From Accumulibacter sp. (GTDB lineage: Bacteria; Pseudomonadota; Gammaproteobacteria; Burkholderiales; Rhodocyclaceae): 64,000 nucleotides of DNA. Under the pieces are notes generated by a model that had not been told where the DNA came from, searched no databases, and saw only the letters and a list, made by a program, of their open reading frames with translations. Positions 4,245 through 25,829 of the stretch are shown here, piece by piece; position 1 is the stretch's first letter; the number at the start of each line of letters is the position of its first letter. The stretch spans positions 124,001 to 188,000 of the forward strand of contig JACKLW010000007.1 of assembly GCA_024235715.1 (NCBI GenBank), in the 5' to 3' direction. The position numbers and the translations under genes are program-made.

Positions 4245-4283
4245 ATGGCGATCCCGTTGTCAGAAAAGGACCTTTTCAATTGA
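4245..4283 (+). promoter_or_regulatory. Leader mini-ORF and palindrome over the ndvB-like ribosome binding site
   Basis: The ribosome binding site of the next gene lies inside a perfect 15-nt palindrome, GAAAAGGACCTTTTC (4263-4277). A 12-codon ATG-initiated reading frame (4245-4283) runs through it and stops with a TGA that overlaps the TTG start of the big gene. This could couple translation or sequester the site. It is visible in sequence only; function is not shown. Confidence 0.35.
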
Positions 4284-7200: not shown

Positions 7201-10200
7201 GTGGTTCGCCCCGGCTGTCGCCGCCGTGGCCGCCATACATCTGGCGGCGTCGAAGCCAGCAGTGCTGGCGGCGGCGGGGCCGATCCTGCTCCTCTGGTTT
7301 GCCTCGCCGATCATCGCCTGGTGGATCAGCCGCCCGCTGGCGCCTCGCAAGGCGATCCTGAGCGGCGAGCAGACAGTCTTTCTGCGCGCGCTGTCGCGCC
7401 GTACCTGGGCCTTCTTCGACGACTTCGTCGGCCCGGAAGACCATTGGCTGCCACCGGACAACATTCAGCAGTATCGCGTTGCCGCGGTTGCGCACCGCAC
7501 GTCGCCCACCAACATGGGACTGGCGCTGCTGGCAAACCTTTCCGCCTACGACTTCGGCTATATCGTGGCCGGACAAGCCCTCGAACGGACGGCGAACACC
7601 CTGAACACGATGGACACGCTGGAACGTTACCGGGGGCACTTCTATAACTGGTATGACACGCAGACCCTGCGACCGCTGCTGCCACTGTACATCTCGACAG
7701 TAGACAGCGGCAACCTCGCGGGCCACCTGTTGACCCTCCGTGCGGGTCTGCTCGCCCTCGCCGACGACAGGATACTGCCGGCGCGGCTGTTCGAAGGCCT
7801 GGGCGATACGCTCGGGATTCTCCTCGGCGAGGCCGACGAAGCCGCCGTGGAGCAGGCGACGGCATTTCGCAACGAACTGGAATCGGCATCGGCTGCCCGT
7901 CCGGACGGTCTCGCGGCGGCGCGCGCTCGCCTCGAGCGCCTGGCGATGCGTGCCGCCGCACTTGCCACACAGGTCGCGGAGAGTCCGCAGGACGGGGACA
8001 TCAGGGCGCCCGGGCACGACGCAAAGGGACATGACGGGGGATGGGCCCAGGCGCTTGCGCGCCAATGCCGCGAGGCACTGGACGAACTGAACTTCCTGGC
8101 GCCGCGGCAAGTTCTGCCGTTGCCCGCGGCTGCGAAAGAGACCTTCGCCGAGAGCGCTGCAATACCGACGCTGCGCGAACTGGCGATGGCAGGCAGCGCC
8201 CCGGCCGGAGAAAGGATGGCGGCGATCGAGCGCGTGGCGCTGCAGTGCCTGCAACACGCGCGCATGGAGTATGGCTTCCTTTACGACGAACTGCGGCACC
8301 TGTTGAGCATCGGTTACAACGTGGCCGAACGGCGCGCGGACCCGGGCTACTACGACCTGCTGGCCTCGGAAGCGCGCTTGTGCAACTTCGTGGCGATTGC
8401 GCAGGGACAACTGCCTCAGGAGAGCTGGTTCGCCCTTGGGCGCCTGCTCACCGGCAAGGACGGAGAACCGGTTCTGCTGTCGTGGAGCGGTTCGATGTTC
8501 GAATACCTGATGCCGCTGCTGGTGATGCCGACCTACGACAACACGCTGCTCGACCAGACCTGCAAGGCGGCAGTGGCCAGGCAGATCGAGTATGGGCACC
8601 TGCGCGGCGTGCCCTGGGGACTGTCGGAATCCGGCTACAACGCGGTCGACGTGCAGCTCAACTACCAGTACCGCGCCTTCGGCGTACCCGGCCTGGGACT
8701 CAAACGAGGACTGGCCGACGATCTGGTTATTGCACCCTATGCCTCGGCCCTGGCGTTGATGGTGGCGCCCGAGCAGGCGTGCGTGAATCTGCAGCGCCTT
8801 GCGGCCGAAGGGTTCATGGGCCAGTTCGGCTTCTTCGAGGCGATCGACTACACGCCTGCACGGCAGCGACGCGGGCAAGCGCGAACGGTGGTGCGCTCCT
8901 TCATGGCCCATCATCAGGGCATGAGCCTGCTCGCGCTTGCCTATCTGGTGCTGGAGCGTCCGATGCAGCGGCGATTCGAATCGGAGCCGCTGTTCCAGGC
9001 AATCATGCTGCTGCTCCAGGAGCGCATTCCCAGGACTACGGCATGGTTTACGCACACCGCACAACTCTCGGCGGTACGCTCGCCGTCGGTTGCGGCGGAA
9101 ACGCCGATTCGCGTGTTCAGCAGCCCCGACACAGCGGTGCCGGAGGTGCAGTTGCTGTCGAACGGCCGCTATCACCTGATGGTCACCAATGCCGGCGGCG
9201 GCTACAGCCGCTGGAAGGATCTCGCCGTTACGCGCTGGCGCGAAGATGGCAGTTGCGATCACTGGGGCACGTTCTGCTACGTCCGCGATGCGCAGAGCAC
9301 GGCATTCTGGTCGACCGGCTATCAGCCGACGCGCAAGCGCCCCGAGCACTACGAAGCGATTTTTTCCGAGGGCAGAGCCGAGTTTCGCCGCCGCGATTCC
9401 GTGACCGGTGGCGAAGGCGCCGAAGGCGGCCAGTTCGAGACCCACACCGAGATCATCGTCTCGCCGGAGGATGACATCGAGTTGCGCAGGGTGCGCATCA
9501 CCAACCGCTCTCGGCAACGGCGGCCACTCGACGTCACCAGTTATGCCGAAGTGGTGATCGCGCCGCCGGCCGCGGACGCCATTCATCCAGCCTTCAGCAA
9601 CCTGTTCGTCCAGACCGAGATTCTGCGGGAACGCTGCGCCATCCTGTGCACCCGCCGGCCCCGCTCGGCCGGCGAGCAGGCGCCCTGGATGTTCCACCTG
9701 ATGACGGCACACGGCGCCGATGTCGGCGAGATTTCCTACGAGACCGATCGCCTGCGCTTTATCGGCCGCGGCAGAACGGCCGCCGCTCCCCTGGCGATGA
9801 GCGACCCCGCGCCGCTTTCCGGCGGTGAGGGTTCGGTGCTCGATCCGATCGTCGCCATCCGCTGTTCGCTGGCGCTTGATCCGGAGCAGACGGTCACCAT
9901 CGACATGGTGTTTGGCATCGGCAAGTCTCGCGACACGGTCTTGAGCCTGATCGAGAAATACCAGGACCGGCATCTCTCGGACCGCGTTCTCGATCTCAAC
10001 TGGACGCACAGCCAGGTGGTGCTGCGGCAGCTCAACGCCAGCGAGGCCGATGCGCAACTGTATGCGCGCCTGGCCAGCTCGGTGATTTACGCCAACGCGT
10101 CGCTGCGCGCGGACGCCGCTTTGCTCGGTACGAATTGTCGCGGGCAGTCGGGGCTGTGGGGGTACGGCATCTCCGGCGATCTGCCAATCGTTCTGCTACA

Positions 10201-13294: not shown

Positions 13295-14401
13295 ATGCCA
13301 AGAGCACCCAAAGCGGCAAGCCAGGCGGCAACCGAAAGCGAAGCCTCCAACTTGCGCTACTGCTGTCAGCCCGTGCAGCATCCACGGCAGTTCGATCCGG
13401 CGGTCGATGTGCTGCGTTCGCGCGCCATACTGGCCGGCGGCAAGAAATGGGTCAATGGAACGCAATTGACCTTTTGCTGCTACAAGGCCGGCGATGCCGT
13501 TCCCAATGCCTGGAAAGGCAAGGCGACAGACATCGAGGAGGTGCGCCAGGCTTTCGAGACCTGGTTCAAGCTGGGCATCGGCATCAGCTTCAAGGAACTG
13601 GCTGAACCCGACGATGCAATGCTGCGTATCGGCTTTGCGCCCGGCGATGGCTCGTGGTCCTACGTCGGCCGCGACAACCTGAACATACGCGATCCCCTGC
13701 AGCGAACCATGAACTTCGGCTGGGCGCTCAATACCGCCTACGGACGCGACACTGCATTGCACGAGATCGGCCACGCTCTCGGCCTCGAGCATGAACACCA
13801 GAACCCCTTCGCCGGAATCGCCTGGGATACCGATGCCGTACGCAACTATTTCCAGGGGCCGCCGAACAACTGGGATGCGCAGACCATCGACTGGAACATC
13901 CTGCGCAAGATCAGCCCCGCAGAAGTGAAGGGCACCAACTGGGACCCCAACTCGGTGATGGAATACGCTTTCGGCGCCGGCCTGATCGTCGAGCCCGCTG
14001 CCTACCGCGGCGGCTTGCAACCCAAGGGCGGGCTCTCGGCGGCCGACAAGGCGTGGATCGTCGAGTCCTATCCGGGAGCCGGTCCGACGAAGAAGATTCC
14101 GGCGCTCGAAGTCGGCTTGTCACAGAGGCTGGCGATCAAGGCCGGCGAGACGCGTGTCTTCGATTTCATGCCGAAGCGCACACGCAACTACAGCATCACC
14201 ACCTTCGGCAGCGCGGACACCCTGATGGTGCTCTTCGAGGTGCGCAGCACCGGCAACGTGCAGATCGGCGGTGACGATGACAGCGGCACCGACAGGAACG
14301 CAAAGATCGAAATGCGCCTGATCAGGGGACGGCACTATCAGATCGGCATACGCCTGTACTATGCGCAGATGGCGGCCGAAACGGCGGTCATGGTCTGGTG
14401 A
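13295..14401 (+). CDS. Zinc-dependent metalloprotease (metzincin, M10/M12-like)
   Basis: 368 residues. The zinc site is complete: HEIGHALGLEH (His156, Glu157, His160, His166), followed by SVMEYAFG around residue 217 as the Met-turn expected for metzincins. Upstream, residues 50-150 have the WVNGTQLTFCCY and VRQAFETWFKLGIGISFKEL pattern of an astacin/matrixin-like N-lobe. After the catalytic domain (ending near 255) a roughly 95-residue beta-rich segment resembles a PPC-type domain (GETRVFDFMPKRTRNYSITTFG). No signal peptide is visible, so secretion, if any, would be non-classical. The ATG at 13295 has a clear ribosome binding site (AGAGGAGAA, 13283-13290). Relation to neighbours is unclear. 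Confidence 0.85.
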   Translation: MPRAPKAASQAATESEASNLRYCCQPVQHPRQFDPAVDVLRSRAILAGGKKWVNGTQLTFCCYKAGDAVPNAWKGKATDIEEVRQAFETWFKLGIGISFKELAEPDDAMLRIGFAPGDGSWSYVGRDNLNIRDPLQRTMNFGWALNTAYGRDTALHEIGHALGLEHEHQNPFAGIAWDTDAVRNYFQGPPNNWDAQTIDWNILRKISPAEVKGTNWDPNSVMEYAFGAGLIVEPAAYRGGLQPKGGLSAADKAWIVESYPGAGPTKKIPALEVGLSQRLAIKAGETRVFDFMPKRTRNYSITTFGSADTLMVLFEVRSTGNVQIGGDDDSGTDRNAKIEMRLIRGRHYQIGIRLYYAQMAAETAVMVW

Positions 14402-14474
14402 GGAGCCGTTGCCTCCGCGCAGCGGCCAGCGCCGTGCTGAAGGCGACCGCTCGCCTGCTGCCGGCAGCTCGGCG

Positions 14475-15215
14475 ATGAGCCACGCGGCCGCCGTCGTCGA
14501 GCGTCGCTTGCTGGCCGGGGTGCCGCTGCTGATCGTGCACCCCGCCGGCAGGGTGACGCCCTTGCCGACCGTGCTCTGGTTTCATGGTCTCGGTGCAGAC
14601 AAGGAACTGCATTTGCCCGAGTTGCAGCGCTTCGCCGGCGCGGGCCTGCTGGCCATCGGGATCGATGCGGTCGGTCACGGCCAGCGGCGCCTGGCCGATT
14701 TCGAGCAGCGTTTCGCGCAGCCGCCAGAACACGCGAGCAGACTTTTCGATTCGCTGGTGGCGCAAACGGCCGCCGAACTCCCGCAGCTCATCGACGCGCT
14801 GGTCGGCTGCGGGCTGAGCGACCGCGAGCGGATCGCTGTCGCCGGTGTGTCGATGGGCGGCTGTATCGTCTACGGTGCGAGCAGTAGTGATTGTTCCCTT
14901 CGTGCCGCCGTCGCGCTGATGGGTTCGCCGGCCTGGCTGCATCCGGATGGCGCCGACTTTCCTGTCGATCGGTTCTTCCCCACGGCTCTGCTGTCGATCA
15001 CCGCCGAGAACGACGAGGTCGTTCCGCCAATGGCGGCGCGTGCCTTGCACGGGCAGCTGGAAGCGCGCTATCGGCAGGATCCGGAGCGGCTCGACTACCG
15101 GACGATCGCCGGCGCGTCTCATTTCATGTCCCCGGAAGACTGGAGCCACGTGCTTGACCAGACGGGCGCATGGCTCGTCCGCTTTGCGGCCGACGGAGAT
15201 CCAGGCGTTCCCTGA
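14475..15215 (+). CDS. Alpha/beta hydrolase (dienelactone hydrolase/prolyl peptidase-like)
   Basis: 246 residues with an alpha/beta-hydrolase layout. The oxyanion-side motif WFHGLGADKE lies at about 35-44 and the nucleophile elbow GVSMGG has Ser126. Asp180 (ENDEVVP) and His216 (GASHFM) complete the triad at the expected spacing. The frame is open back to 14361, inside the metalloprotease gene, but ATG 14475 gives a normal fold start. No strong ribosome binding site is seen, so translation may depend on the upstream gene, whose stop is 73 nt away. Substrate unknown: esterase, thioesterase or peptidase are all possible. It faces the convergent paaJ gene. Confidence 0.82.
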   Translation: MSHAAAVVERRLLAGVPLLIVHPAGRVTPLPTVLWFHGLGADKELHLPELQRFAGAGLLAIGIDAVGHGQRRLADFEQRFAQPPEHASRLFDSLVAQTAAELPQLIDALVGCGLSDRERIAVAGVSMGGCIVYGASSSDCSLRAAVALMGSPAWLHPDGADFPVDRFFPTALLSITAENDEVVPPMAARALHGQLEARYRQDPERLDYRTIAGASHFMSPEDWSHVLDQTGAWLVRFAADGDPGVP

Positions 15216-15268: not shown

Positions 15269-16474
15269 TCAGACGCGCTCGATGATCATCGCCACGCCCT
15301 GGCCGACGCCGACGCACAGGGTGCATAACGCGTAGCGGGCGGAGCGGCGACGCAGTTCCCAGGCGGCGGTGGTCACCAGACGCGCACCGGTCATGCCGAG
15401 CGGATGGCCAATGGCAATCGCGCCGCCATTCGGGTTGACGTGCGCGGCGTTGGCGGGGATTGACAGGTCGCGCAGCACCGCCAGGCACTGCGCGGCAAAC
15501 GCTTCGTTGATCTCGATGACGTCCATCTGGTCCAGCCGCAGCCCGCTCCTGGCCAGCACCTTGCGCGTCGCCGGCGCAGGGCCGAAGCCCATGATCCGCG
15601 GCGCAACGCCGGCAGTGGCCATGGCCACGATGCGTGCGCGGGGTGTCAGGCCGTGTTTGGCGGCCGCCTCTTCATTGGCGATGAGCAGCGCGCAGGCACC
15701 ATCGTTGATTCCCGCCGAGTTGCCGGCGGTAACCGTGAGTCCGGCAGCGTTGATGCCTTCGCGCTTGGCCAGTCGGGCCATGGTCATCTCCGGGCGGGGG
15801 TGTTCATCGCTCTTGAAGACCGTCGCGTGACCTTTCTTTTGCGCCAGACGAACGGGGATGATCTCGTCGGCGAATCGTTCGGCTTCGTGCGCGGCACCCC
15901 AGCGCTGTTGCGAGCGCAAGGCAAAGGCGTCCTGATCGGCTCGCGAAATGCTGAACCTGGCGGCGACGTTGTCGGCGGTCTGCGCCATCGAGTGCGTGTC
16001 GTGGAGCTTTTTCAGGAGCGGGTTGACGAAGCGCCAGCCGAGCGTCGTGTCGTGGATCGCCGTGCTGCGCGAGAAGGCGCTTTCGGCCTTGGGGATGACG
16101 AACGGCGCGCGCGACATGCTCTCGACGCCGCCGGCAATCATCAGATCGGCTTCGCCCGCCTTGATCGAGCGCGCAGCCAGGCCGATGGCATCCATTCCCG
16201 AGGCGCAGAGGCGGTTGACCGTCGTTCCGGCGACCTCGACCGGCAGCCCGGCGAGCAGACCGGCCATGCGCGCCACATTGCGGTTGTCCTCGCCGGCCTG
16301 ATTGGCGCAGCCGTAGATCACGTCATCGACAAGGGACCAGTCTACCCCGGGGTTGCGGTCGATCAGGGCGCGAATCGGCAAGGCTGCGAGGTCATCGGTG
16401 CGCACGCCGGACAGCGCACCTCCATAACGGCCGACCGGCGTCCTGACAGCGTCGCAGATAAAGGCTTCGTTCAT
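15269..16474 (-). CDS. paaJ: 3-oxoadipyl-CoA thiolase (PaaJ/PcaF-type)
   Basis: 401 residues, the usual length for PaaJ/PcaF. It cleaves 3-oxoadipyl-CoA (and the didehydro form in phenylacetate catabolism) to succinyl-CoA and acetyl-CoA. All thiolase catalytic residues are present: Cys90 in NRLCASGMDAIG, His357 in GHPLGMTGAR and Cys387 in CTLCVGVGQG. The N-terminus EAFICDAVRTPVGRYGGALS.VRTDDLAALPI is typical of the oxoadipyl subgroup rather than general acetoacetyl-CoA thiolases. It is the last gene of the minus-strand paa operon, 161 nt downstream of paaI; the gap is larger than between the other members, so a separate processing event is possible. Confidence 0.93.
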   Translation of the reverse strand: MNEAFICDAVRTPVGRYGGALSGVRTDDLAALPIRALIDRNPGVDWSLVDDVIYGCANQAGEDNRNVARMAGLLAGLPVEVAGTTVNRLCASGMDAIGLAARSIKAGEADLMIAGGVESMSRAPFVIPKAESAFSRSTAIHDTTLGWRFVNPLLKKLHDTHSMAQTADNVAARFSISRADQDAFALRSQQRWGAAHEAERFADEIIPVRLAQKKGHATVFKSDEHPRPEMTMARLAKREGINAAGLTVTAGNSAGINDGACALLIANEEAAAKHGLTPRARIVAMATAGVAPRIMGFGPAPATRKVLARSGLRLDQMDVIEINEAFAAQCLAVLRDLSIPANAAHVNPNGGAIAIGHPLGMTGARLVTTAAWELRRRSARYALCTLCVGVGQGVAMIIERV

Positions 16475-16635
16475 TTACGGGGAGTCCTTTCAGTGGTCGA
16501 GCGCTGGCGCGGCATGGTCGACCGGGGTATGGGGGGCTGGTTGGCAACGAGGGCGGGGCAGGCGTATTGTCCTGCCGGTTGGTCTCGAGTTGCTGCGTGG
16601 CTTTGCTGCGTGCTGCGACCGTGGAGGTCGAGGCT

Positions 16636-17181
16636 TCATTGCGGGTTTCCTTCGACCGCATCCGGCCCCTGCCTGGCCGCACTGCTCGATGCGCCAGGTT
16701 CGCTGTCTTCGGCTTCGAGGCCGGCGATCACTTCGCCGGCGATGCGGTACGATTTGCCGCGGAAAAGGGCCACCACCTTGCCGCGCGCGTTGCGGATCGT
16801 CGTGTCGTAGACGCCGGTGCGTCCGGCGAGCGATCGTTCCTCGCACTCCGCTTCGAGCAGTTCGCCCTCGCGTGCCGGCGTGAGGAAGTCTATGTGGCAC
16901 GCGGAAGCGACCGTGTTGCGGTTGTAGCTGTTGCAGGCGTAGGCAAAAGCCGAGTCGGCAAGAGTGAACAGATAGCCGCCGTGACAGATATGGTGGCCGT
17001 TGACCATATCCGGTCGGACGAGCATCGTCAATCGCGAGTAACCGGGGCGAACGCTGGCCAGTTTCAGGTCGATCAGCTTGCTGGCCGCGTCGCGGCTGAA
17101 CATCGCCTCGGCCGTCTGTTCGGCGAGCAGGCGCGCGGTCTCGGGATCGGGGTCGGGGTCGGGGCTGGCGGGGTCAGGCAT
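16636..17181 (-). CDS. paaI: Hydroxyphenylacetyl-CoA thioesterase PaaI (hotdog fold)
   Basis: 181 residues with a central hotdog thioesterase domain: HICHGGYLFTLADSAFAYACN holds the conserved HGG and the Asp of the PaaI group, followed by CHIDFLTPAREGELL and a GRTGVYDTTI strand. PaaI hydrolyses stalled ring-hydroxylated phenylacetyl-CoA intermediates and so rescues CoA. The start ATG (17179-17181) overlaps the end of paaH by 8 nt, indicating translational coupling. The first residues are an Asp-Pro repeat (PDPASPDPDPDP) encoded by a GGGGTC-type hexanucleotide tract, and the C-terminal 35 residues extend beyond the usual PaaI end (about 140-150 residues). Both extensions look disordered. Confidence 0.9.
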   Translation of the reverse strand: MPDPASPDPDPDPETARLLAEQTAEAMFSRDAASKLIDLKLASVRPGYSRLTMLVRPDMVNGHHICHGGYLFTLADSAFAYACNSYNRNTVASACHIDFLTPAREGELLEAECEERSLAGRTGVYDTTIRNARGKVVALFRGKSYRIAGEVIAGLEAEDSEPGASSSAARQGPDAVEGNPQ

Positions 17182-18703
17182 GGAAAGTCTTTCGGGAAAA
17201 CACCTTGCGGGCGAGCAGCGGCGAAACGCGATAGCGGTCTTCGCCGTAGGTGGCGGCGAGATTGGCCAGTACGCGGCGGACCTGCTTGAGGCCGATGCGC
17301 TCGGCCCAGGCCAGCGGACCGAGCGGGTAGTTGGTACCCAGGCACATCGCCTGATCGACGGCGTGCGCGTCGCAGACCTGCTGGTAGACCGCATCGGCAG
17401 CCTCGTTGGCCAGCATGCAGACGCTGCGCATGACAGCCAGGCCGGGAACGTCGGCCAGCTTCGAGACGGCGAAGCCGGCAGACTGGAGCAGCGCGACGGC
17501 AGTCTCGATCGCCGCCGGGCTGCATTGCTCGGCAGCGGCAATTGCCAGGCGGCTGGCGCTGCCGTAGTCGAGTGCCAGGTCGACCAGGACGGTGTTGGAA
17601 ACGCCCTTGCGCGCAGCGCGCTCGCTGGCGGTGCGGCCATCGGTCAGGTAGAGCACGGCGCTGCCGGCTTCGGCAAAGCGGCCGTCCGGTGTCGTGCCGG
17701 CTGGCTGAAACGGCAGGCCGTGCGCTTGCAGCCGGCTGCGCAGGGACTCGGCCAGCGAACCCTCGGCAAAAATCAGCGGCGCCGACGACAGGGCGGCCTG
17801 CTTCGGCAGGGTGTTCGCCGGCGGTCGCGGTGTGTCGTCGTAGCGATAGAAGCCGCGCCCGCTCTTGCGGCCGAGAAAGCCGGCGGCGACCAGTTCCTGC
17901 TGGATCAGCGAGGGCGCGTAGCGAGGGTCGTTGAAGAACGCGCTCCACACCGATCTGCTGACCGCCAGGTTGACGTCGAGTCCGATCAGATCCATCAGCT
18001 CGAAAGGCCCCATGCGGAAGCCGCCGGCCTCGCGGAAGACGGCATCGAGCGTCGCGCAGTCGGCGGCGCCTTCGTTGAGCAGGCGCAGCGCTTCGCCGTA
18101 GTAGGGGCGGGCGACGCGATTGACGATGAAGCCCGGCGTCGAGCGCGCCATTACGGCCGTCTTTCCCCAGGCCTGCGCCGTGGCCTGCAGCGTGCCGGCG
18201 ACCTGCGCGTCGGTCGCCAGCCCGCTGACCACTTCGACCAGGACCATCAGTGGCGCCGGGTTGAAGAAGTGCAGTCCGGCCATTCGCTGCGGCGATTTCA
18301 GCACCGCGGCGACGGCCGTGATCGATAGCGAAGAGGTATTGCTGGCGAGCAGGCAATCCGGCGCGACCAGGCCTTCCAGGTCGCGAAACAGCGCCCGCTT
18401 GGCGCCCAGATCCTCGACGATGGCTTCGATCACCAGAGCGCTGTCGGCGAGTTCGTCGATAGTGCGCGCCAGCGACAGTCTGGCCCGTGCCGCTTGCGCG
18501 GTGGCTGCAGCGAGCTTCCCGCGGCTGACCAGTTGTTCGAAAGCTGCGCCGATGCCGGTGATCGCCTGCTCGGCGACAGCTGCATCGGCGTCGAAGAGGC
18601 GCACCCGATGGCCGGCAGCAGCGGCGACCTGCGCGATACCGGCGCCCATGGCACCGGCGCCAACGATGCCGACGATCCTGTCCTTGCTGAGGGCGGCGTT
18701 CAA
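17174..18703 (-). CDS. paaH: 3-hydroxyadipyl-CoA dehydrogenase PaaH
   Basis: 509 residues. The N-terminal Rossmann domain has GAGAMG (15-20), then SNTSSLSITAVA and HFFNPAPLMVLVEVV, typical of 3-hydroxyacyl-CoA dehydrogenases. Two C-terminal 3HCDH domains follow (GFIVNRVARPYYGEALRLL and a second around 400-490 with GLAVMRSVCMLANEAADAV). The duplicated C-terminal domain and the ~500-residue length are characteristic of PaaH rather than single-domain dehydrogenases. It oxidises 3-hydroxyadipyl-CoA with NAD. It lies 5 nt after the paaG stop and overlaps paaI by 8 nt. Confidence 0.93.
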   Translation of the reverse strand: MNAALSKDRIVGIVGAGAMGAGIAQVAAAAGHRVRLFDADAAVAEQAITGIGAAFEQLVSRGKLAAATAQAARARLSLARTIDELADSALVIEAIVEDLGAKRALFRDLEGLVAPDCLLASNTSSLSITAVAAVLKSPQRMAGLHFFNPAPLMVLVEVVSGLATDAQVAGTLQATAQAWGKTAVMARSTPGFIVNRVARPYYGEALRLLNEGAADCATLDAVFREAGGFRMGPFELMDLIGLDVNLAVSRSVWSAFFNDPRYAPSLIQQELVAAGFLGRKSGRGFYRYDDTPRPPANTLPKQAALSSAPLIFAEGSLAESLRSRLQAHGLPFQPAGTTPDGRFAEAGSAVLYLTDGRTASERAARKGVSNTVLVDLALDYGSASRLAIAAAEQCSPAAIETAVALLQSAGFAVSKLADVPGLAVMRSVCMLANEAADAVYQQVCDAHAVDQAMCLGTNYPLGPLAWAERIGLKQVRRVLANLAATYGEDRYRVSPLLARKVFSRKTFHA

Positions 18704-18708
18704 TTTTG

Positions 18709-19500
18709 CTAGCGATCCGTGAAGGTCGGCGTTCGCCTGCCGATGAAGGCGGCGACACCTTCACGGTAGTCGTCGCTGCGGCCGAGTTCGCGCATGATGT
18801 CGCGCTCCAGGTCGAGCTGCGTTTCGAGCGGATTGTTGACCCCGGCACGCATCACCTGGCGGGTGCGGACCAGCGCCCGGGTCGGCGCGCTGGCGAGTTG
18901 CCTGGCGATTCGGTCGATCGTTGGCGCCAGTTCGGCGTCGTCGACGCAATCCCAGATCAGGCCCCAGGCGGCGGCTTTCTCGGCCGGCAGCTTTTCGGCC
19001 AGCATCGCCAGTCCGATGGCACGCGCCATGCCGACGCGTTGTGGCAGGAACCAGCTGCCGCCGGTATCGGGAATCAGCCCGATCTTGCTGAAGGCCTGCA
19101 GAAAACTCGCCGAGCGTGCGGCAACGACGATGTCGCAGGCCAGCACCAGGCTGGCGCCGGCACCGGCGGCAATGCCGTTCACCCCGCAGATCGTCGGCAT
19201 GCGCAGGTGCTGCAGGCGCAGGACCAGCGGCTTGTAGTTCTTCTCGATCGTTGCTGCCAGGTCGGGCGGCTCGTCGCTGCCCGCCACTGCGCGATCGTTG
19301 AGATCCTGGCCGGCACAGAACGCGCGTCCGGCGCCGCTGAGTACCAGAACGCGGGCGCTGAGGTCGGCGTCGAGCGCGTCCATTGCCTGCCGGATCTCGG
19401 CATGCATCACCTCGGTGAAACTGTTCAGGCGATCGGGACGATTGAGCGTCAGGCGTGCGATGCCGTCGTCGACGGCGCAAGTGATGGCAGTGAAGCTCAT
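18709..19500 (-). CDS. paaG: Ring-1,2-epoxyphenylacetyl-CoA isomerase PaaG (crotonase family)
   Basis: 263 residues, matching the usual 262. Crotonase motifs are in place: TLNRPDRLNSFTEVMHAEI, GAGRAFCAGQDLNDR and GVNGIAAGAGASLVLACDI for the oxyanion hole, then SKIGLIPDTGGSWFLP, whose Asp belongs to the isomerase active site. PaaG converts the epoxide to the seven-membered oxepin-CoA and later isomerises a double bond. The ATG at 19500 begins MSFTAITCAV; the open frame extends upstream into paaN but without a plausible start. It lies 10 nt after the paaN stop and 5 nt before paaH, so all are one transcript. Confidence 0.93.
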   Translation of the reverse strand: MSFTAITCAVDDGIARLTLNRPDRLNSFTEVMHAEIRQAMDALDADLSARVLVLSGAGRAFCAGQDLNDRAVAGSDEPPDLAATIEKNYKPLVLRLQHLRMPTICGVNGIAAGAGASLVLACDIVVAARSASFLQAFSKIGLIPDTGGSWFLPQRVGMARAIGLAMLAEKLPAEKAAAWGLIWDCVDDAELAPTIDRIARQLASAPTRALVRTRQVMRAGVNNPLETQLDLERDIMRELGRSDDYREGVAAFIGRRTPTFTDR

Positions 19501-19510
19501 TGGGCGGTTC

Positions 19511-21175
19511 TCAGAGATGGCGGCGGCGCTGTACGACGCGGAAGCGGTTGGCGACAAAGGCGGAATCGGCATATGAAGCGTTGGCGGCCGGGTTGCCACC
19601 CGTGCCATGATAATCGGAGAAAGCCGTCGATTGGTTGACGAAGACGGCTCCGGTCAGGTTGATCGACAGCGCGACCTTCGACCGCCAGGTCGCTTCGCTC
19701 ATGGCCTCGATGACTTCGGCCGAGGTCGAGTATACCGCGGCGGTCAGTGCGCCGTGCTCGCTGACGACGCGCTCGGAGAGGGCGATGGCGGCAGCGGTAT
19801 CGGCGACCCGGACCAGGAAGCTGATCGGCCCGAAGCATTCCTGGGTCCATGGTGGCTCGTCGGCTGCGCAGGCGATCAGCACCGGTGAGCGCACGCGTGC
19901 CTCGGGAAACTCGGGGTGGTCGATCGCTTTGGTGCCGAGAACGACCTTGCCCAGCGAGCCGCTGCTCGCCGTTTCGATGCGCCGCAGTGTGTCTTCGGAC
20001 TGCACCGCGCCGAGTACCGCAAGCGCGACTTCCGGCTTGCCGAGGAGCGCGTCGATGGCGCCGGCGAGGTCGCTGGCCAGATCGTCGAAAGTCTTGTGGC
20101 CAAGGTCGGTTTCGATACCGGCAGCCGGTACGAAGAGCGCTTGCGAGGTGGTGCACATCTGCCCCGAGTAGAGCGAAAGCGTGAACGCCAGGTTGCGCAG
20201 CATTGCCTTGTAGGCATCGGTGGAGTCGATGACGATGTTGTTGACGCCGGCGAGTTCGGCATAGACCTGAGCCTGGCGACAGTGGTCGATCAGCCAGTTG
20301 CCGAAGGCATTGCTGCCGGTGAAATCGATGGACCGGATTGCCCGGTGTTGCGCCAGTTCGCGCGTTGCCTGGTCTTCTTTGAACGCCGCCAGGCTGACCA
20401 GGTTGGCGTCGATACCGTTCTCGGCCAGCACTTCGCGGATGATGCGCACGCTGATCGCTACCGGCAGTATGGCGTTGGGGTGCGGCTTGACGATCACCGG
20501 GTTGCCGGTGGCCAGCGCGGCGAACAGGCCGGGGTAGGTGTTCCAGGTCGGAAAGGTGCCGCAGCCGATGACCAGCGCGACGCCGCGGCCGACGATCTCG
20601 AATTGCTTGTGCATGCGCAGGGGCGGGTTCTTGCCCTGCGGTTTTTCCCAGATTGCTTCCGCCGGTACGAAACTCTGTTCGCGCCAGGCGTAGGCGACGG
20701 CTTCGAGGGCGCGATCCTGCGCGTGCGGCGCGCCGGCCTGGAAAGCCATCATCCAGCCCTGGCCGGTAGTCATCATCACCGCGTGCGCCAGTTCGAAGCT
20801 GTGCTTGTTCAGCCGTTCGAGGATTTCCAGGCAGATGCCGGTGCGTCCTTCGGCGCCGATATTCCGCCAGCCGCGCATGGCCTCGAGGCCGGCGTCGATC
20901 AGCGCCTGCGCATTGCACACCGGGTAGCTGACGCCGAGGGCCAAGCCGTAGGGCGACGTCTCGCTGCTCGTCCACGCGACCTGGCCGGGCTGGTCGAGCG
21001 CGAATTGCCGTCCGAGACAGCGCTCGAAGGCGCGCTTGCCGTCTTCCATCGCGCTCTCGCCATAGATCCCGGGGCTTGGCGTCTCGGCGTACGCCGCCCA
21101 GTAGCCGCGCTCGTGAATGGCGTTGACGGCGGCGTCGAGGGTGGCGCGGTGCTTGTCGAAAAGGGCGTGCGGCAT
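19511..21175 (-). CDS. paaN: Phenylacetic acid degradation aldehyde dehydrogenase PaaN
   Basis: 554 residues, an aldehyde-dehydrogenase-fold protein of the PaaN type found in several beta- and gammaproteobacteria. The catalytic Cys341 is in YSGQMCTTSQ, the general-base Glu307 in YAELAGVNN, and IDFTGSNAFG and PWTQECFGP follow the ALDH pattern. It lacks the C-terminal MaoC-like hydratase domain of E. coli PaaZ. It can therefore oxidise the semialdehyde produced by ring cleavage, but another enzyme must hydrolyse oxepin-CoA. The start (ATG ending at 21175) has a strong GGAGGAT ribosome binding site. It is the first gene of the minus-strand operon, divergent from the di-iron gene. Confidence 0.9.
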   Translation of the reverse strand: MPHALFDKHRATLDAAVNAIHERGYWAAYAETPSPGIYGESAMEDGKRAFERCLGRQFALDQPGQVAWTSSETSPYGLALGVSYPVCNAQALIDAGLEAMRGWRNIGAEGRTGICLEILERLNKHSFELAHAVMMTTGQGWMMAFQAGAPHAQDRALEAVAYAWREQSFVPAEAIWEKPQGKNPPLRMHKQFEIVGRGVALVIGCGTFPTWNTYPGLFAALATGNPVIVKPHPNAILPVAISVRIIREVLAENGIDANLVSLAAFKEDQATRELAQHRAIRSIDFTGSNAFGNWLIDHCRQAQVYAELAGVNNIVIDSTDAYKAMLRNLAFTLSLYSGQMCTTSQALFVPAAGIETDLGHKTFDDLASDLAGAIDALLGKPEVALAVLGAVQSEDTLRRIETASSGSLGKVVLGTKAIDHPEFPEARVRSPVLIACAADEPPWTQECFGPISFLVRVADTAAAIALSERVVSEHGALTAAVYSTSAEVIEAMSEATWRSKVALSINLTGAVFVNQSTAFSDYHGTGGNPAANASYADSAFVANRFRVVQRRRHL

Positions 21176-21204
21176 GGCATCCTCCGGTAAGGGTGGTGGC
21201 GACC

Positions 21205-21266
21205 TTGAGACTGGGTGCGTCCAGAGACAAGTCCTAAACGGTACAAACTATGCGCCATTCTGTCAA
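21205..21266 (-). promoter_or_regulatory. paaN leader: TTGACA box and two-part motif shared with the AraC-type gene
   Basis: On the minus strand a perfect TTGACA (21266-21261) is followed after 17 nt by TACCGT, a weak -10. Then come GTACCGTTTAG (21244-21234, overlapping that -10) and GCACCCAGTCTCAA (21218-21205). The two latter elements recur in the same order upstream of the AraC-type gene at 28815. Confidence 0.45.
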
Positions 21267-21376
21267 TCTGCGTATCATTAAGGCGCGCGGCGAATAATGC
21301 GAGAGTGCTCGCGCGACGACTCGTCAGGGCCGGTAAAGGTAGATACAAAGCCATGCTGGAGCGTTAATTTAACAGT

Positions 21377-21410
21377 CTGCCGAACAGCATGCAGGGATGC
21401 CGTTCGGCAG
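21377..21410. promoter_or_regulatory. 9-bp inverted repeat with extended inner stem in the paaN/di-iron divergent region
   Basis: CTGCCGAAC (21377-21385) and GTTCGGCAG (21402-21410) are perfect inverted copies. Inside them GCAT (21387-21390) pairs with ATGC (21397-21400), giving 13 paired bases with one mismatch. A small palindrome GTTAATTTAAC sits just before it (21363-21373). The position, about 58 nt upstream of the likely -35 of the di-iron gene, suits an operator, for example for the PaaX-like repressor encoded downstream; this assignment is inference. Confidence 0.45.
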
Positions 21411-21467
21411 CAGGGGTGGCGAACGCGATGACCCTGCAGACTGCGACGCGAGCCGATACGAGTCTGC

Positions 21468-21497
21468 TTGACAGGCAACGACAAGACGTAACATGAT
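21468..21497 (+). promoter_or_regulatory. Likely sigma70 promoter of the di-iron operon
   Basis: TTGACA (21468-21473), 18-nt spacer, CATGAT (21492-21497). This would give a leader of about 50 nt before the ATG at 21556. Confidence 0.45.
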
Positions 21498-21555
21498 GAT
21501 CGAGCCGGAGTCGGATCCGGTCGGCATCCGAACATACCCGCCAGGGGAGATCCGC

Positions 21556-22584
21556 ATGAGCACAGACAAGCAACGCTTTGCCGAGACGATGGCCATGCCG
21601 CCATCGACCGAGCAACCCAACATCTACCCGCTGTCGTGGGAAGCGAACACCAGGAAGATGGAGGAGGTGTGGGCTGCAGCACAGCGCGACTACTGGGATC
21701 CGGCCAAACTGCCGTGGGACACTTTCGATCCCGACAGCTACAGCTGGGAAGAGCGTGAGGCCATCGCCTACTGGTGGACGCTGCTGTCGGTATTCGATGC
21801 CTCGGCGCCGCCGGTATTCGCCGCGGCGATGATCAAGACCTACGAAGCGCATGAAGAGGCGCCGGTACGCAACTGCTTCTTTTCGGTGACTCGCGACGAG
21901 CACAACCACGAGACGATGTGCGGCATGGCCATCACCCGCCTGCTCGACCATCCCGATCCGCTCGGCTACACGCCGAAGAGCGATCTCGGCCGGCGCCTGC
22001 AAAAGAACGCGGCGTGGCTGTATTTCAACGGTGGGCGCTACTGGGAGGGCTACAAGAAGGCCGTGCCGCGCTATTCGCTGGCAGTCCTCTTCAGTTCCTT
22101 CCTGATGGGCGAGATTGCCGCGGCGACGATCTTCAAGCAGATGTACGAGAACTGCCGCGAGGCGGTCTTCCGGGAAGGTTTCCGCAACATCGGTCGCGAT
22201 GAAGGCCGGCACATGGCGATCTGCATGGCCTTGATGCAACGCGACTACCCGCGCCTGGGGGAAGACGACAAGCGGACCGTGACCCGGCAGATTCGTGCCG
22301 GCTATCTGTTCCTTTCTGCGGTGCTGTTCGAGCCACCGATGGATTTCTGGGATCTGCCCGCCGACTTCATCGCCAATCAGCGCGAAGGCGAGGAGGTCTG
22401 CCGGCAGGCGGGTTTTGGCGTGCCCGGCTACGAGATGAAACTGCAGAACTGGAAGAAGGCGATGCTCAATCTCAAGGGCGTGCTCGACCAGTACGCTATC
22501 GAATTCCCGGCGATCCCCGAAGTCGGCATTACCGGGCGCGAGATCAGCGACGTCGAAATGGACGATATCATTCCGGTATTCTGA
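21556..22584 (+). CDS. Ferritin-like di-iron oxygenase of unknown substrate
   Basis: 342 residues. Two ExxH motifs mark a carboxylate-bridged di-iron site: RDEHNH (Glu115, His118) and RDEGRH (Glu216, His219). Glu186 (MGEIAAA) and Asp81 or Glu97 are candidates for the remaining ligands, at spacings like those of R2-type and other ferritin-fold oxygenases. The sequence does not look like PaaA, PaaC or BoxB as I know them. The gene is followed 105 nt later by a ferredoxin-type reductase, which supports an electron-fed oxygenase. Its place between the paa operon and the PaaX-like regulator suggests a role in aromatic acyl-CoA or phenylacetate metabolism. ATG 21556 is preferred over 21493 because of GGGGAGA at 21545-21550. 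Exact reaction unknown. Confidence 0.75.
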   Translation: MSTDKQRFAETMAMPPSTEQPNIYPLSWEANTRKMEEVWAAAQRDYWDPAKLPWDTFDPDSYSWEEREAIAYWWTLLSVFDASAPPVFAAAMIKTYEAHEEAPVRNCFFSVTRDEHNHETMCGMAITRLLDHPDPLGYTPKSDLGRRLQKNAAWLYFNGGRYWEGYKKAVPRYSLAVLFSSFLMGEIAAATIFKQMYENCREAVFREGFRNIGRDEGRHMAICMALMQRDYPRLGEDDKRTVTRQIRAGYLFLSAVLFEPPMDFWDLPADFIANQREGEEVCRQAGFGVPGYEMKLQNWKKAMLNLKGVLDQYAIEFPAIPEVGITGREISDVEMDDIIPVF

Positions 22585-22689
22585 ACGCTCGGAACACGCG
22601 AAACGCCGACAGTGGCCAGCGAGGGTGCCCGCCTTCGGCGGCGCCGCACAGCGTTGCAATAGTCCGGTGAACGCACTCTGGAGACCACC

Positions 22690-23760
22690 ATGACCAGCAC
22701 CATGACCAGCCAGATCGTCCTGCACCCGTCAGGCAAGCGGATTGACTGTGCGCTTGGCGACACGGTGCTCGCCGCCCTCGAAGCCGCCGGTTACGCCTTG
22801 CCGAACAATTGTCGCGCCGGCGCCTGCGGCGAATGCAAGGTACGTGTCCGCTCGGGTGACTTCGACCAGGGGATGGTGCTCGACATGGCGCTTTCGCCTG
22901 AGGATCGCCTTGAAGGCTATGGCCTGATGTGCATGGCAAAGCCGCTCTCCGAAGAACTGGTCATCGAATGGGGCAGCGAAGACGATGCCCGGCCGAAATT
23001 TTTTCCGCCGAGCCAGAACATGCTCTTCGTGGTGGTCAGCAAGAGTTTCTGCGCAACCCGGGTTGTCGAGCTGCGCCTGCGCCCGGTGGGTGCGCTCCTG
23101 CGCTACTGGCCCGGCCAGTACATCACGCTTGGCGATGATGGCGCGGGCGTTCCCTACCGTGCCTATTCGATGGCCAACGCGCCGCGACCCGACGGCGAGA
23201 TCGTCCTGCAGGTGGCGCGCTCGGACGACGGCGGCACCAGTGCCTGGGTGTACGACACCCTGGCGGCCGGCGACCGGGTGAAGATCAATGGCGCGTACGG
23301 CACCTTCGTCGGCGATCCGACGGTCGACACGCCGGTGCTTTGCCTGGCAGCGGGGACCGGCGTGGCGCCGGTTCTGGCGCTCGCCGAGGCGGCGTTGCGC
23401 CGGGGTTTCCGGCGACCGGTGAGCTTTCTCGTCTCGGCGCGCAGCGCCGACGAAGTCTACGCCGGTGGCATGCTCTCGTGGTGGCATGCCAAATACCGCA
23501 ACTTCAACTATCAGGTGACGCTGACGCGTGAGGAGCGGGCCGGCTATCTGCACGGTCGCGTCGACGCGATCCTGCCGCTGCTCCTGCCGGATCTTTCCGG
23601 TCACTCCGTTTTCGCTGCCGGCAGCCCGGAATTCGTCGATGCCTGCGTGAGCACGGTCAGAAAGCTCGGCGCGCAGGACGCGCTGATCCACAGTGAGGGC
23701 TTCTTTCCTCAGCACGGCACCGACGAAGACGCCGCGGTTGCTTCCCCGCTCAAGCGCTGA
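22690..23760 (+). CDS. 2Fe-2S ferredoxin/FAD/NAD(P) oxidoreductase (oxygenase reductase component)
   Basis: 356 residues in the order ferredoxin, FAD, NAD(P). The plant-type 2Fe-2S cluster ligands are Cys41, Cys46 and Cys49 (NNCRAGACGEC) and Cys81 (GLMCMAKP). The flavin-binding RAYSMANAP and nucleotide-binding AAGTGVAPVLALAE segments follow, and the C-terminus has FAAGSPEFVDAC. This order matches MmoC/XylZ/TmoF-type reductases and is the reverse of PaaE, whose ferredoxin domain is C-terminal. It should transfer electrons from NAD(P)H to the upstream di-iron protein. ATG 22690 has GGAG eight nt upstream; a second in-frame ATG at 22702 is possible. Confidence 0.88.
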   Translation: MTSTMTSQIVLHPSGKRIDCALGDTVLAALEAAGYALPNNCRAGACGECKVRVRSGDFDQGMVLDMALSPEDRLEGYGLMCMAKPLSEELVIEWGSEDDARPKFFPPSQNMLFVVVSKSFCATRVVELRLRPVGALLRYWPGQYITLGDDGAGVPYRAYSMANAPRPDGEIVLQVARSDDGGTSAWVYDTLAAGDRVKINGAYGTFVGDPTVDTPVLCLAAGTGVAPVLALAEAALRRGFRRPVSFLVSARSADEVYAGGMLSWWHAKYRNFNYQVTLTREERAGYLHGRVDAILPLLLPDLSGHSVFAAGSPEFVDACVSTVRKLGAQDALIHSEGFFPQHGTDEDAAVASPLKR

Positions 23761-23768
23761 GCAATCGC

Positions 23769-24797
23769 GTGCCGCGAATTCTCGAGTCCCGGGCTGCCAA
23801 TGGTGCGATCGCGCGCCGTCTGGATCAGGCACGAGAGAGCAGTGGCGCGTCGCCTGACCTGCCGGTCGCTGCACGCATCGCGCTGTGCAGCGGGCAGAAG
23901 CGGGTGCATGCCGGTTCGCTGATCGTTTCGCTTTTCGGCGACCTGGTCGTGCCGCGCGGTGGTCGCATCTGGCTGGGCAGCCTGATCCGCCTGCTCGAAC
24001 CGCTCGGTTTGAGCGAACGCCTGATCCGGACAACGGTCTTTCGCCTGGTCAGGGAGCAGTGGTTGCGTTCCGAAGCGCTCGGCCGACGCAGCGATTACCT
24101 GCTGACGTCAAGCGGTCAGCGCCGTTGTGCAGAGGCGGCCAAACGCATCTACGCCGCGCACGCCCCGGACTGGGACCGACGCTGGCGACTGGTTCTGGCG
24201 GTCGGTCCGCTGGCGGCGAAGGAGCGCGACGCCCTGCGGCGGGCACTCTTCTGGCGGGGTTTCGGGGCACTGGGTGCGGAGTGCTTCGTTCATCCGGGCG
24301 CGGACCTCACGGCCGCTTTCGACGCCCTGGTGGCCGACGGTCTCGGCCACCTGCTGCCTGCCCTGATGCCGCTGCTGGCCGCCGACGCCAGTCTGGCGGG
24401 CAGCGCCAGCCATGCCGACCTCGTTTCCCGCGCCTGGGATCTCAGCGAACTGGCGTGCTCATACGCCGATTTCATCGCCGCCTACACGCCGGTCCTGCTG
24501 CAGTTGCGTGTCGATCAGCGGGCGCCGGTCGATGACGAACAGGCCTTCCTGACGCGCCTGCTGTTGATCCACGACTACCGCCGCCTCCTGCTGCGCGATC
24601 CGCAGTTGCCCGAAGTGCTGCTGCCCAGCGCCTGGTCCGGCGAGGGCGCGCGGGCCCTGTGCAGGGAACTCTACCGCCGCCTGCTGGCGCCCTCCGAGCG
24701 CCACCTGGACCATTTCCTGTCGACGGCGGACGGCAATTGCCCTCCGCGGCAACTGTTCGTCGAGCGTCGTTTCGCCGCAGACGATCCGCTCACCTGA
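23769..24797 (+). CDS. paaX: PaaX-type transcriptional repressor
   Basis: 342 residues, somewhat longer than typical PaaX (about 300). Family features start at residue 45: HAGSLIVSLFGDLVVPRGG, IWLGSLIRLLEPLGLSERL and RTTVFRLVREQWL form the winged-helix DNA-binding region. The conserved ARAWDL-like VSRAWDLSELA and the C-terminal LLIHDYRRLLLRDPQLPEVLLP complete the pattern. PaaX represses phenylacetate genes and responds to phenylacetyl-CoA. It starts with GTG 9 nt after the reductase stop, so it is probably co-transcribed. The first 44 residues are not conserved, and the true start may be internal. Its likely target is the divergent paaN/di-iron region. Confidence 0.88.
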   Translation: MPRILESRAANGAIARRLDQARESSGASPDLPVAARIALCSGQKRVHAGSLIVSLFGDLVVPRGGRIWLGSLIRLLEPLGLSERLIRTTVFRLVREQWLRSEALGRRSDYLLTSSGQRRCAEAAKRIYAAHAPDWDRRWRLVLAVGPLAAKERDALRRALFWRGFGALGAECFVHPGADLTAAFDALVADGLGHLLPALMPLLAADASLAGSASHADLVSRAWDLSELACSYADFIAAYTPVLLQLRVDQRAPVDDEQAFLTRLLLIHDYRRLLLRDPQLPEVLLPSAWSGEGARALCRELYRRLLAPSERHLDHFLSTADGNCPPRQLFVERRFAADDPLT

Positions 24798-24810
24798 GGG
24801 CGCGCCGCTG

Positions 24811-25470
24811 TCAGGGGCTGTGCGGTGCGCCACTCTCCCGCTCCTGCTCGCCGGCCTGCGCCTGCCTGCGCAATTCGATCAGCGGTTGCACCCCCGGCAT
24901 GTCGAAGCGTTTTCGGTCCGGCTCGACGGCAGCCAGCGCCTCGGTTTCGACCAGCGTCGCCAGCGAACGCCGGGTGAGTTCCTGATAGGTCAGCGTGCCG
25001 TCGATCTTCCAGGCCATTTCCTGTTCGCTGAGCAGGCGCATGACCTTGGCCGGAACGCCGCCGACCAGCGAGCGTGCCGGTACCTCCATTCCGGCGCGGA
25101 CGAAGGCGCAGGCGGCAACGATCGACGACTCGCCGATGACCGCGTTGTCCATGATCACAGCATTCATGCCAACCAGCGCGTTGCGGCCGATGCGGCAGCC
25201 GTGCAGCACTGCGCCGTGGCCGATATGGCCGTCCTGCTCGATGACCGTGTCCGTCCCGGGAAAACCGTGCATGACGCAGGTGTCCTGCACATTGACGCCC
25301 TCTTCGAGGATCAGGCGGCCGAAGTCACCGCGCAGGCTGGCGCAGGGACCAACGTAACAGCCCGGTCCGACGATCACGTCGCCGATCAGGACGGCTGCGG
25401 GATGCACATAGGCACTCGGATCGATGACCGGAACGATGCCGTCGATGGCGAAAACACGCGGGCGGTTCAT
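24811..25470 (-). CDS. paaY: PaaY, gamma-carbonic-anhydrase-like hexapeptide thioesterase
   Basis: 219 residues with a left-handed beta-helix of hexapeptide repeats (about 20-140) and the metal-site pattern [18 protein letters not shown]. This places it with PaaY/CaiE and gamma-carbonic anhydrases. PaaY is a thioesterase removing inhibitory ring-hydroxylated CoA thioesters in the phenylacetate pathway. A helical C-terminal part ([19 protein letters not shown]) is characteristic of PaaY; the last 30 residues are extra. ATG (ending 25470) has AGGAGT nearby, while the frame open to 25545 lacks one. It is convergent with the PaaX-like gene, 13 nt between stops; in E. coli paaX and paaY are collinear. 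Confidence 0.88.
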
Positions 25471-25829
25471 GCGGCTACTCCTGTAGGAGGTCCTGCGCCG
25501 TGGGCGAAGCCTGTGGCGCAAGGCCGATTCTGCGACGCTGACCATTCTAGTCCGCTGCCGGCGCCGCCGCGACGATGCCGCGCCCGAAAAAGCGACGCAA
25601 GGTCAGTCCCGGTCATTAATGTGAAAGTCGCGGGCCGCCTGATGCCCGCCTTTACTCGCCGTGGCAGCGTAGCCGGGCGGGTCGCCGAGAGCGTAAGGAT
25701 CATGCAGCTGCGACGACTCAGTTCCCGTAGGCCGGAAGGCCGCATGCCAATACCCTTCATGAATCTCGTCGCCCACCACTTGCCGGTTCCCTGGCACCTC
25801 ACCGCTCCGATGCGCATCGACGAGGCGGC
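25471..25829. other. Intergenic region between divergent paaY and glycosyltransferase genes
   Basis: 359 nt without a supported gene. It contains a 15-nt sequence, TAATGTGAAAGTCGC (25617-25631), that also occurs at 13129-13143. Open frames on both strands between 25600 and 25830 have no recognisable motifs. Promoters for both flanking genes should lie here, but I see no clear -35/-10 pair. Confidence 0.4.

Follow-up and report, generated by a model that had tools for sequence, protein, structure and literature searches.

A candidate two-gene di-iron oxygenase, DIO-RED, in an Accumulibacter phenylacetate locus without paaABCDE

Epoxidation of the aromatic ring of phenylacetyl-coenzyme A (CoA) has so far been credited to one conserved multi-subunit enzyme. 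This enzyme, PaaABCE, is a di-iron hydroxylase with a separate reductase. Here, we analyze a 64,000-nucleotide stretch of Accumulibacter sp. DNA (contig JACKLW010000007.1, positions 124,001 to 188,000 of the forward strand; hereafter, the window) that carries two adjacent genes in a phenylacetate (paa) locus, named DIO, for a candidate di-iron oxygenase, and RED, for its putative reductase. We favor, by a narrow balance of judgment, the reading that DIO and RED form a two-component di-iron oxygenase, which serves phenylacetate breakdown by epoxidizing phenylacetyl-CoA.

Compared with PaaABC(D)E, DIO-RED has the same proposed place in the pathway, and both diverge from one two-operator region in seven examined loci; it differs in having a single hydroxylase protein where the canonical enzyme has PaaA/PaaC, PaaB, and PaaD, in the opposite domain order of its reductase, and in showing no detected sequence kinship. 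The benzoyl-CoA epoxidase BoxAB is a two-gene di-iron epoxidase and reductase that works on an aryl-CoA. DIO-RED likewise consists of two genes, but RED matches BoxA at 20 bits versus a cut-off of 459 bits, and DIO is unlisted for BoxB (TIGR03225) at E up to 1. R2lox proteins contain a Mn/Fe cofactor and a Tyr-Val crosslink; their physiological role is unsettled, and we know of no dedicated reductase beside them. DIO is only 14% identical to R2lox. AurF N-oxygenases (PF11583) differ in that DIO scores 23.6 bits, below the gathering score of 29.6, and stands in a paa context with a dedicated reductase; its relatives in Variovorax and Nonomuraea, described below, score 25.3 and 25.2 bits. Finally, reductases of the BenC/MmoC type, which serve oxygenases of unactivated substrates, have the same domain order as RED, but RED falls far below their cut-offs and the partner hydroxylase is unrelated.

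In excerpts of the published literature, PaaA/PaaC are recommended as markers of the phenylacetate pathway (PMC13186573), an alternative oxepin-CoA hydrolase is reported with paaABCDE named as the oxygenase (PMC9007349), and an atypical oxygenase is postulated for polystyrene in Exiguobacterium, in a cluster with paaA and paaB (PMC9416434). A DIO-like protein is not described in the excerpts of these three articles or of PMC9765128, PMC6449761, PMC2907700, PMC9115942, and PMC2653477. Searches of open-licence PubMed Central (PMC) papers, against which the newness of DIO-RED is judged, listed no DIO-like oxygenase.

The DIO-RED pair and its operator

An earlier note, made from the letters of the window, had described a paa locus without paaABCDE, in which a ferritin-like protein and a ferredoxin-first reductase lie between paaN-G-H-I-J and a PaaX-like repressor. 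This layout is borne out (Table 1): paaN-G-H-I-J run on the minus strand (15269-21175), DIO, RED, and paaX on the plus strand, and paaY again on the minus strand. PaaN, PaaG, PaaJ, PaaX, and PaaY pass curated NCBIfam cut-offs, and PaaK, also over its cut-off with 725 bits, is coded at another place in the genome. DIO-RED falls outside PaaABCDE: RED is ferredoxin-first, and the 4.14 Mb assembly, 90.5% complete, has zero matches to PF05138, the family of PaaA and PaaC, with PaaB and PaaD given no separate search. Taken alone, this genome leaves room for a PaaA/PaaC copy in the missing tenth; the same PF05138 search recovers PaaA and PaaC in a congener, G022 (323 and 283 bits; genomes are labeled G and loci L). 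The genome has no alternative oxepin-CoA hydrolase over cut-off, the best match, at 182 bits, being paaG itself.

The two ExxH motifs previously read at Glu115/His118 and Glu216/His219 are present at these residues. Six candidate di-iron ligands, D81, E115, H118, E186, E216, and H219, are invariant down to 45% identity. R2lox proteins are characterized by the ligand layout D/E-ExxH-E-ExxH. Structure prediction, a check that the earlier note had proposed, yields a DIO model resembling the R2/R2lox di-iron fold, so that the predicted protein combines an R2-type fold with the R2lox ligand pattern across the six conserved positions. The DIO start at 21556 is preceded by a GGGGAG box and is favored over the ATG at 21493 of the longer frame, as the nearest start codons in seven orthologues, once aligned, fall on it or no more than a few residues away.

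The note had assigned DIO to no described family, and this stands: DIO passes no Pfam or NCBIfam cut-off, and a profile check of the 342-residue protein against PaaA, BoxB, and AurF, like that against other known oxygenase families, placed it over none. Models of PaaA/PaaC (PF05138, TIGR02156, TIGR02158) leave DIO unlisted at E up to 10 for Pfam and up to 1 for NCBIfam, HMMER filters being in force. Sequence searches of the PDB found no match with E below 0.04, and a profile search of PDB sequences listed, for solved R2lox, 7qbp alone, at E 0.86. PaaA/BoxB entries are absent from the best 50 rows of the fold comparison, which does not exclude them.

DIO also differs from the R2 subunit of ribonucleotide reductase. 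The R2 radical tyrosine, which lies four residues past the first ExxH (Y122 in E. coli), is replaced at position 122 by Cys in 50 of 50 rows of one alignment (A2) and 12 of 12 of another (A3). Pointing the other way, Ribonuc_red_sm is matched by 16 of 50 DIO members at E up to 0.1, with a best value of 2.2e-5.

RED consists of Fer2 (11-85), FAD (123-206), and NAD (219-319) domains. As the note had claimed, this ferredoxin-first order is opposite to that of PaaE, whose ferredoxin part, in locus L079, occupies residues 319-398 of 406. The best NCBIfam match of RED is BenC (125 bits, cut-off 430) and the third is MmoC (111 bits, cut-off 500). In each of the 80 relatives discussed below, and in each of the eight genus loci, the first matched gene to follow DIO is RED.

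A dyad, GATAC-N(28-31)-GTATC, is found in 30 of 58 paaN-DIO intergenic regions and, in relaxed form, in 52 of 58, compared with means of 0.1 (strict) and 0.44 (relaxed) when the letters were shuffled 50 times. A 44-bp operator matrix was built from the strict sites, none of which came from the window. Across all window positions on both strands, the matrix peaks at 21452 with a score of 11.6, followed by -0.3 for the next site. This operator begins 104 bases before the DIO start and contains the TTGACA (21468) of a promoter-like pair ending at 21497, the sole such site in 21100-25600, where shuffles average 0.7. A scan of 49 chosen loci, with a score floor of -2, placed the operator ahead of paa genes in DIO-free clusters (L129, 17.4; L137, 22.2; L138, 4.9). 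In seven Dechloromonas-type loci (L044, L046, L056, L063, L084, L086, and L092), paaN-G-H-K-J-livJ-paaA diverge from DIO-RED at a two-operator region; because both sides depart from this one region, DIO-RED and paaABCDE appear, on sequence grounds, to be co-regulated in these loci. The operator common to other paa operons places DIO in the paa regulon, and we infer that PaaX is the protein that binds this operator. The earlier note had named two findings that would tell against its reading, a clear hit to a known oxygenase family with another substrate and a full paaABCDE without co-regulation; no such family is over cut-off, and the operator region can be common to both gene sets.

Distribution of DIO and canonical PaaA/PaaC

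Within a sample of 28 Accumulibacter genomes (G000-G027), nine have PaaN over cut-off; DIO is present in eight of these nine and in none of the other 19 (Fisher p=3e-6, kinship ignored). PaaA/PaaC occur only in the ninth PaaN genome, G022, and the 19 genomes without paaN have neither. G010, a DIO-only genome, consists of one contig with a completeness score of 100%, and the remaining seven DIO genomes range from 83 to 100%. DIO falls into two lineages in the genus, separate on the tree and neither accompanied by PaaA/PaaC: the window type (G018 and G013, with 91% and 89% identity to the window) and the G010 type, found in five genomes at 70-72% identity. In G022, paaN-G-H-I-J are 62-89% identical to those of the window, and paaY adjoins paaN at the place held in the window by DIO-RED-PaaX, the contig stopping inside paaY; another contig carries paaA and paaC, plus, judged by their position, paaB and paaE. 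Of the stretches fetched for the eight DIO-bearing loci, seven include PaaX, the exception being L015.

At the family level, DIO is found in 36 of 199 genomes (a count that includes the partial G458 and leaves out a weak match, G597). PaaG is over cut-off in 36 of these 36, versus 38 of the 163 DIO-free genomes (p=3e-19). The 74 PaaG genomes divide into 19 with DIO only, 17 with DIO and canonical PaaA/PaaC, 25 with the canonical enzyme only, and 13 with neither. In five of these 13, paaG is directly preceded by a divergent PaaA-like gene, and eight have no recognized epoxidase. If divergent PaaA-like genes are counted as epoxidases, a choice made post hoc, 19 of 36 DIO genomes have no other epoxidase versus 8 of 38 others (p=0.007). 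In wider samples, DIO is matched in 15 of 399 genomes at the order level, six of them weakly (E 7e-9 to 4e-4), and in two of 369 at the class level, namely, the window's own and one weak match (E 5e-4). No relatives were found in viral contigs or phage records, and PHROGs gave none at E up to 0.1.

The divergent PaaA-like genes (L022:9123-9890, L137:5911-6663, L138:5944-6708, L139:5935-6741, and L140:5900-6694) belong to genomes without DIO and without canonical PaaA/PaaC, each with a second such gene elsewhere. The two proteins scanned score 69.5 and 63.1 bits to TIGR02156 (cut-off 280), with an hhalign probability of 98.3% to PaaA, and may perhaps represent a third kind of ring epoxidase. 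Clusters with paaG and paaY, and partly paaI, paaJ, paaK, or paaN, occur in L129, L130, L131, L132, and L134, again in genomes without DIO or canonical PaaA/PaaC; no oxygenase was recognized by eye among the open reading frames of ~12 kb in these loci.

Among the best 80 of 292 relatives in named records, several with stretches cut by contig ends, the fetched stretches contain PaaG in 56, PaaN in 53, PaaX in 40, and paaA in 20. Whole genomes were followed up for 50 of the 60 loci without paaA, the records being taken with no statement of completeness: 24 have PF05138 matches of >300 bits, one of 135 bits, and 25 have none over cut-off (one of these reaching 24 bits). Among these 25 DIO-only genomes are Brachymonas denitrificans DSM 15123, Azonexus hydrophilus ZS02 and DSM 23864, Dechloromonas hortensis MA-1, D. 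denitrificans ATCC BAA-841, and Castellaniella sp. S9, none of them marked in its record as a metagenome-assembled genome; PaaG, H, J, and N stand together in the DIO locus in 20 of the 25.

The position of DIO is correlated with this difference. Where DIO is linked to paaG, 24 genomes lack and nine have canonical PaaA/PaaC; where it is unlinked, one lacks and 15 have it (p=1e-5, from hand-read labels for 49 of the 50 genomes, L081 left out, with kinship ignored and some stretches cut by contig ends). Adding the 20 loci with paaA inside gives 24 and 26 linked, and 1 and 18 unlinked (p=7e-4). Nearly all genomes with a DIO copy apart from paaG thus also have canonical PaaA/PaaC. A quick tree was made from 88 DIO proteins (75 labeled); support is poor for 35 of its 83 inner branches. 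On this tree, the presence of PaaA/PaaC requires 15 changes, or five when only well-supported branches are used. From these repeated changes, PaaABCDE seems to have been gained and lost repeatedly beside a persisting DIO.

Three distant settings extend this picture. A plasmid of Variovorax sp. RA8 (L126:2542-19011) carries a DIO relative of 49-50% identity in an operon with RED, a divergent PaaK-like ligase (282.6 bits versus a cut-off of 646.3), an enoyl-CoA hydratase whose closest models are the alternative oxepin-CoA hydrolase and, after it, PaaG-like ones (none over cut-off), a MaoC protein most similar to the hydratase part of PaaZ, a thiolase-like protein, a transporter, an FAD-linked oxidase, and an annotated indolepyruvate ferredoxin oxidoreductase. 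PaaA, B, C, and E have no match in this 19-kb plasmid stretch, the chromosome lying outside the search. The operon is a candidate pathway for another arylacetate, and its gene context suggests that the DIO family acts on aryl-CoA esters more widely. In Vitreoscilla filiformis, DIO-RED adjoins paaB-E and paaZ on a plasmid. In the 19-kb stretch of a Nonomuraea relative (46%), RED and paa genes are both missing.

Features of the window

Genes and sites of the paa locus are collected in Table 1. Beside paaJ, an alpha/beta hydrolase frame (14361-15215) has a PETase-like Pfam match of 28.3 bits (cut-off 28). Farther out, frames read by eye are protease-like, carrying a HEIGHALGLEHEH zinc motif (13295-14401), resemble a cyclic beta-glucan synthase (4280-13045, 2,921 aa), or form one open frame of 10,686 aa with repeats like those of a calcium-binding RTX-type surface protein (31736-63796). 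In other loci, genes following RED were also read by eye: a solute:sodium symporter-like gene in G010-type loci (L014:6469-8139; L012, L015-L017) and genes of a branched-chain amino acid type ATP-binding cassette transporter in many Dechloromonas-type loci. These transporters probably serve phenylacetate uptake.

Table 1. Genes and operator sites of the paa locus in the window.
Feature	Position	Strand	Remarks
paaJ thiolase	15269..16474	-	PRK09050 and pcaF over cut-off
paaI-like thioesterase	16636..17181	-	named from position and relatives (tblastn matches); start picked by eye
paaH	17174..18703	-	TIGR02279 639.7 bits, cut-off 669.4; PRK08268 over cut-off
paaG, epoxide to oxepin isomerase	18709..19608	-	TIGR02280 371 bits, over cut-off
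paaN	19511..21175	-	TIGR02288 886 bits, over cut-off
Second operator-like site GATAC...GTACC, weaker	21240..21276	-	faces paaN; read by eye, outside top matrix scores
paa operator GATAC...GTAAC, 44 bp	21452..21495	+	upstream of DIO; top window score of operator matrix
DIO	21556..22584	+	342 aa, ATG 21556 to stop 22584; candidate R2-like di-iron oxygenase
RED	22690..23760	+	ferredoxin-FAD-NAD reductase, BenC/MmoC layout
paaX repressor	23769..24797	+	GTG start; TIGR02277 285 bits, cut-off 264.55
paaY	24811..25545	-	TIGR02287 322 bits, over cut-off

Proposed role, alternatives, and significance

We infer the substrate, product, metal content, electron flow, and O2 activation of DIO-RED as follows. 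RED would pass electrons from NAD(P)H via flavin adenine dinucleotide (FAD) and a 2Fe-2S center to DIO, whose R2-type di-iron site would activate O2 and transfer one of its atoms to the phenylacetyl-CoA ring; the resulting 1,2-epoxide would be handed to PaaG. DIO-RED would be the sole ring epoxidase in Accumulibacter and several other genomes and, where paaABCDE co-occurs, would work alongside it within one regulon. The simplest reading is thus another type of ring oxygenase, with phenylacetyl-CoA as its most likely substrate. It explains the restriction of DIO to PaaG-bearing genomes in the family sample, the absence of PaaABCDE from some DIO genomes, and the switch that the two enzymes can have in common. 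The earlier note had raised two options, a simplified epoxidase replacing PaaABCDE and a different aromatic oxygenase recruited under PaaX control. The former has good support in Accumulibacter and in several isolates that retain the other pathway genes without PaaA/PaaC over cut-off, but fails as a general rule, with both enzymes in 17 of 36 DIO family genomes and paaA inside the DIO locus of 20 of 80 relatives.

These co-occurrences weigh against an epoxidase role, as do several further observations. Exclusivity of DIO and PaaA/PaaC in PaaG genomes is non-significant (odds ratio 0.47, p=0.16), and general mutual exclusion is rejected; in the whole-genome follow-up, 24 of 50 DIO genomes without paaA in the locus have canonical PaaA/PaaC elsewhere, which may point to another substrate. 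Since 13 of 74 PaaG genomes have neither enzyme, a missing PaaA alone does not make DIO an epoxidase. At the score floor of -2, no operator is found in L022, L079, L090, L144, L128, or G022 (L019, L020), of which G022 belongs among these counterpoints, and where DIO lies apart from paa genes, the operator is absent or marginal (-0.7 in L082, 0.1 in L097); L034, where DIO is divergent from paaA, scores 0.8. Foldseek gave just one match to the DIO model at E up to 0.001, and kinship of DIO to PaaA was not seen in sequence (hhalign probability 1.5%, narrow alignments). To this list belong the missing RED of the Nonomuraea relative and the open-licence PMC literature on Azonexus, Dechloromonas, and Brachymonas, in which no growth on phenylacetate or enzyme data for DIO were found.

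The main rival, which we hold unlikely yet worth keeping in view, is that DIO-RED oxidizes a different arylacetyl-CoA, such as hydroxyphenylacetyl-CoA, indoleacetyl-CoA, or the like, that feeds the PaaG/PaaN steps, so that two-enzyme genomes would serve two substrates. This would also explain the frequent co-occurrence of DIO with PaaABCDE, and is consistent with the Variovorax relative standing beside a divergent PaaK-like ligase and an indolepyruvate ferredoxin oxidoreductase. However, the remaining paa set is ordinary in 20 of 25 DIO-only genomes, the window's genome has PaaK over cut-off, and the operator in the DIO promoter region also precedes paa genes in DIO-free clusters.

A role before CoA activation, on a free acid, amine, or hydrocarbon from which phenylacetate is supplied, appears improbable. 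The resemblance of RED to BenC/MmoC type reductases and the transport-like genes that adjoin DIO-RED in many relatives (by eye) favor it, but it leaves Accumulibacter and the DIO-only isolates without a recognized enzyme making the PaaG substrate. We consider it very improbable that DIO-RED is a repair or salvage enzyme that, for example, deoxygenates a stalled epoxide or handles tropone-type by-products: such a role would suit the 20 of 80 relatives with paaA in the same locus and the Vitreoscilla plasmid with its adjacent paaB-E, but DIO is kept without PaaA/PaaC over cut-off in 25 of 50 tested genomes, and without any in eight of eight DIO genomes of the genus. Least credible of all is that the DIO-only pathway is broken or anaerobic and DIO unrelated to ring epoxidation, an idea that draws on the eight family PaaG genomes without DIO, canonical PaaA/PaaC, or a divergent PaaA-like gene, but is opposed by the 36 of 36 co-occurrence with PaaG, the common operator, the conserved candidate metal ligands, and the repeated changes of PaaA/PaaC presence on the DIO tree (15, five forced by well-supported branches).

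Returning to ring epoxidation by DIO-RED, we regard as evenly poised the broader proposal that an undescribed family of two-gene di-iron aryl-CoA epoxidases, with an R2/R2lox fold and without detectable PaaA/BoxB kinship, repeatedly took over phenylacetate ring oxygenation, with distant members on other arylacetyl-CoA pathways in Variovorax and perhaps actinobacteria. DIO-RED is the only ring-epoxidase candidate found in several sequenced isolates. If DIO-RED does epoxidize phenylacetyl-CoA, an R2-fold protein would join the known CoA-ester ring epoxidases. Genomes judged by PaaA/PaaC would be misjudged, including those of Accumulibacter, which inhabits wastewater plants. DIO-RED would then be an exception to the PaaA/PaaC marker rule, as worded in the excerpt of PMC13186573, and marker-based genome surveys would miss it.

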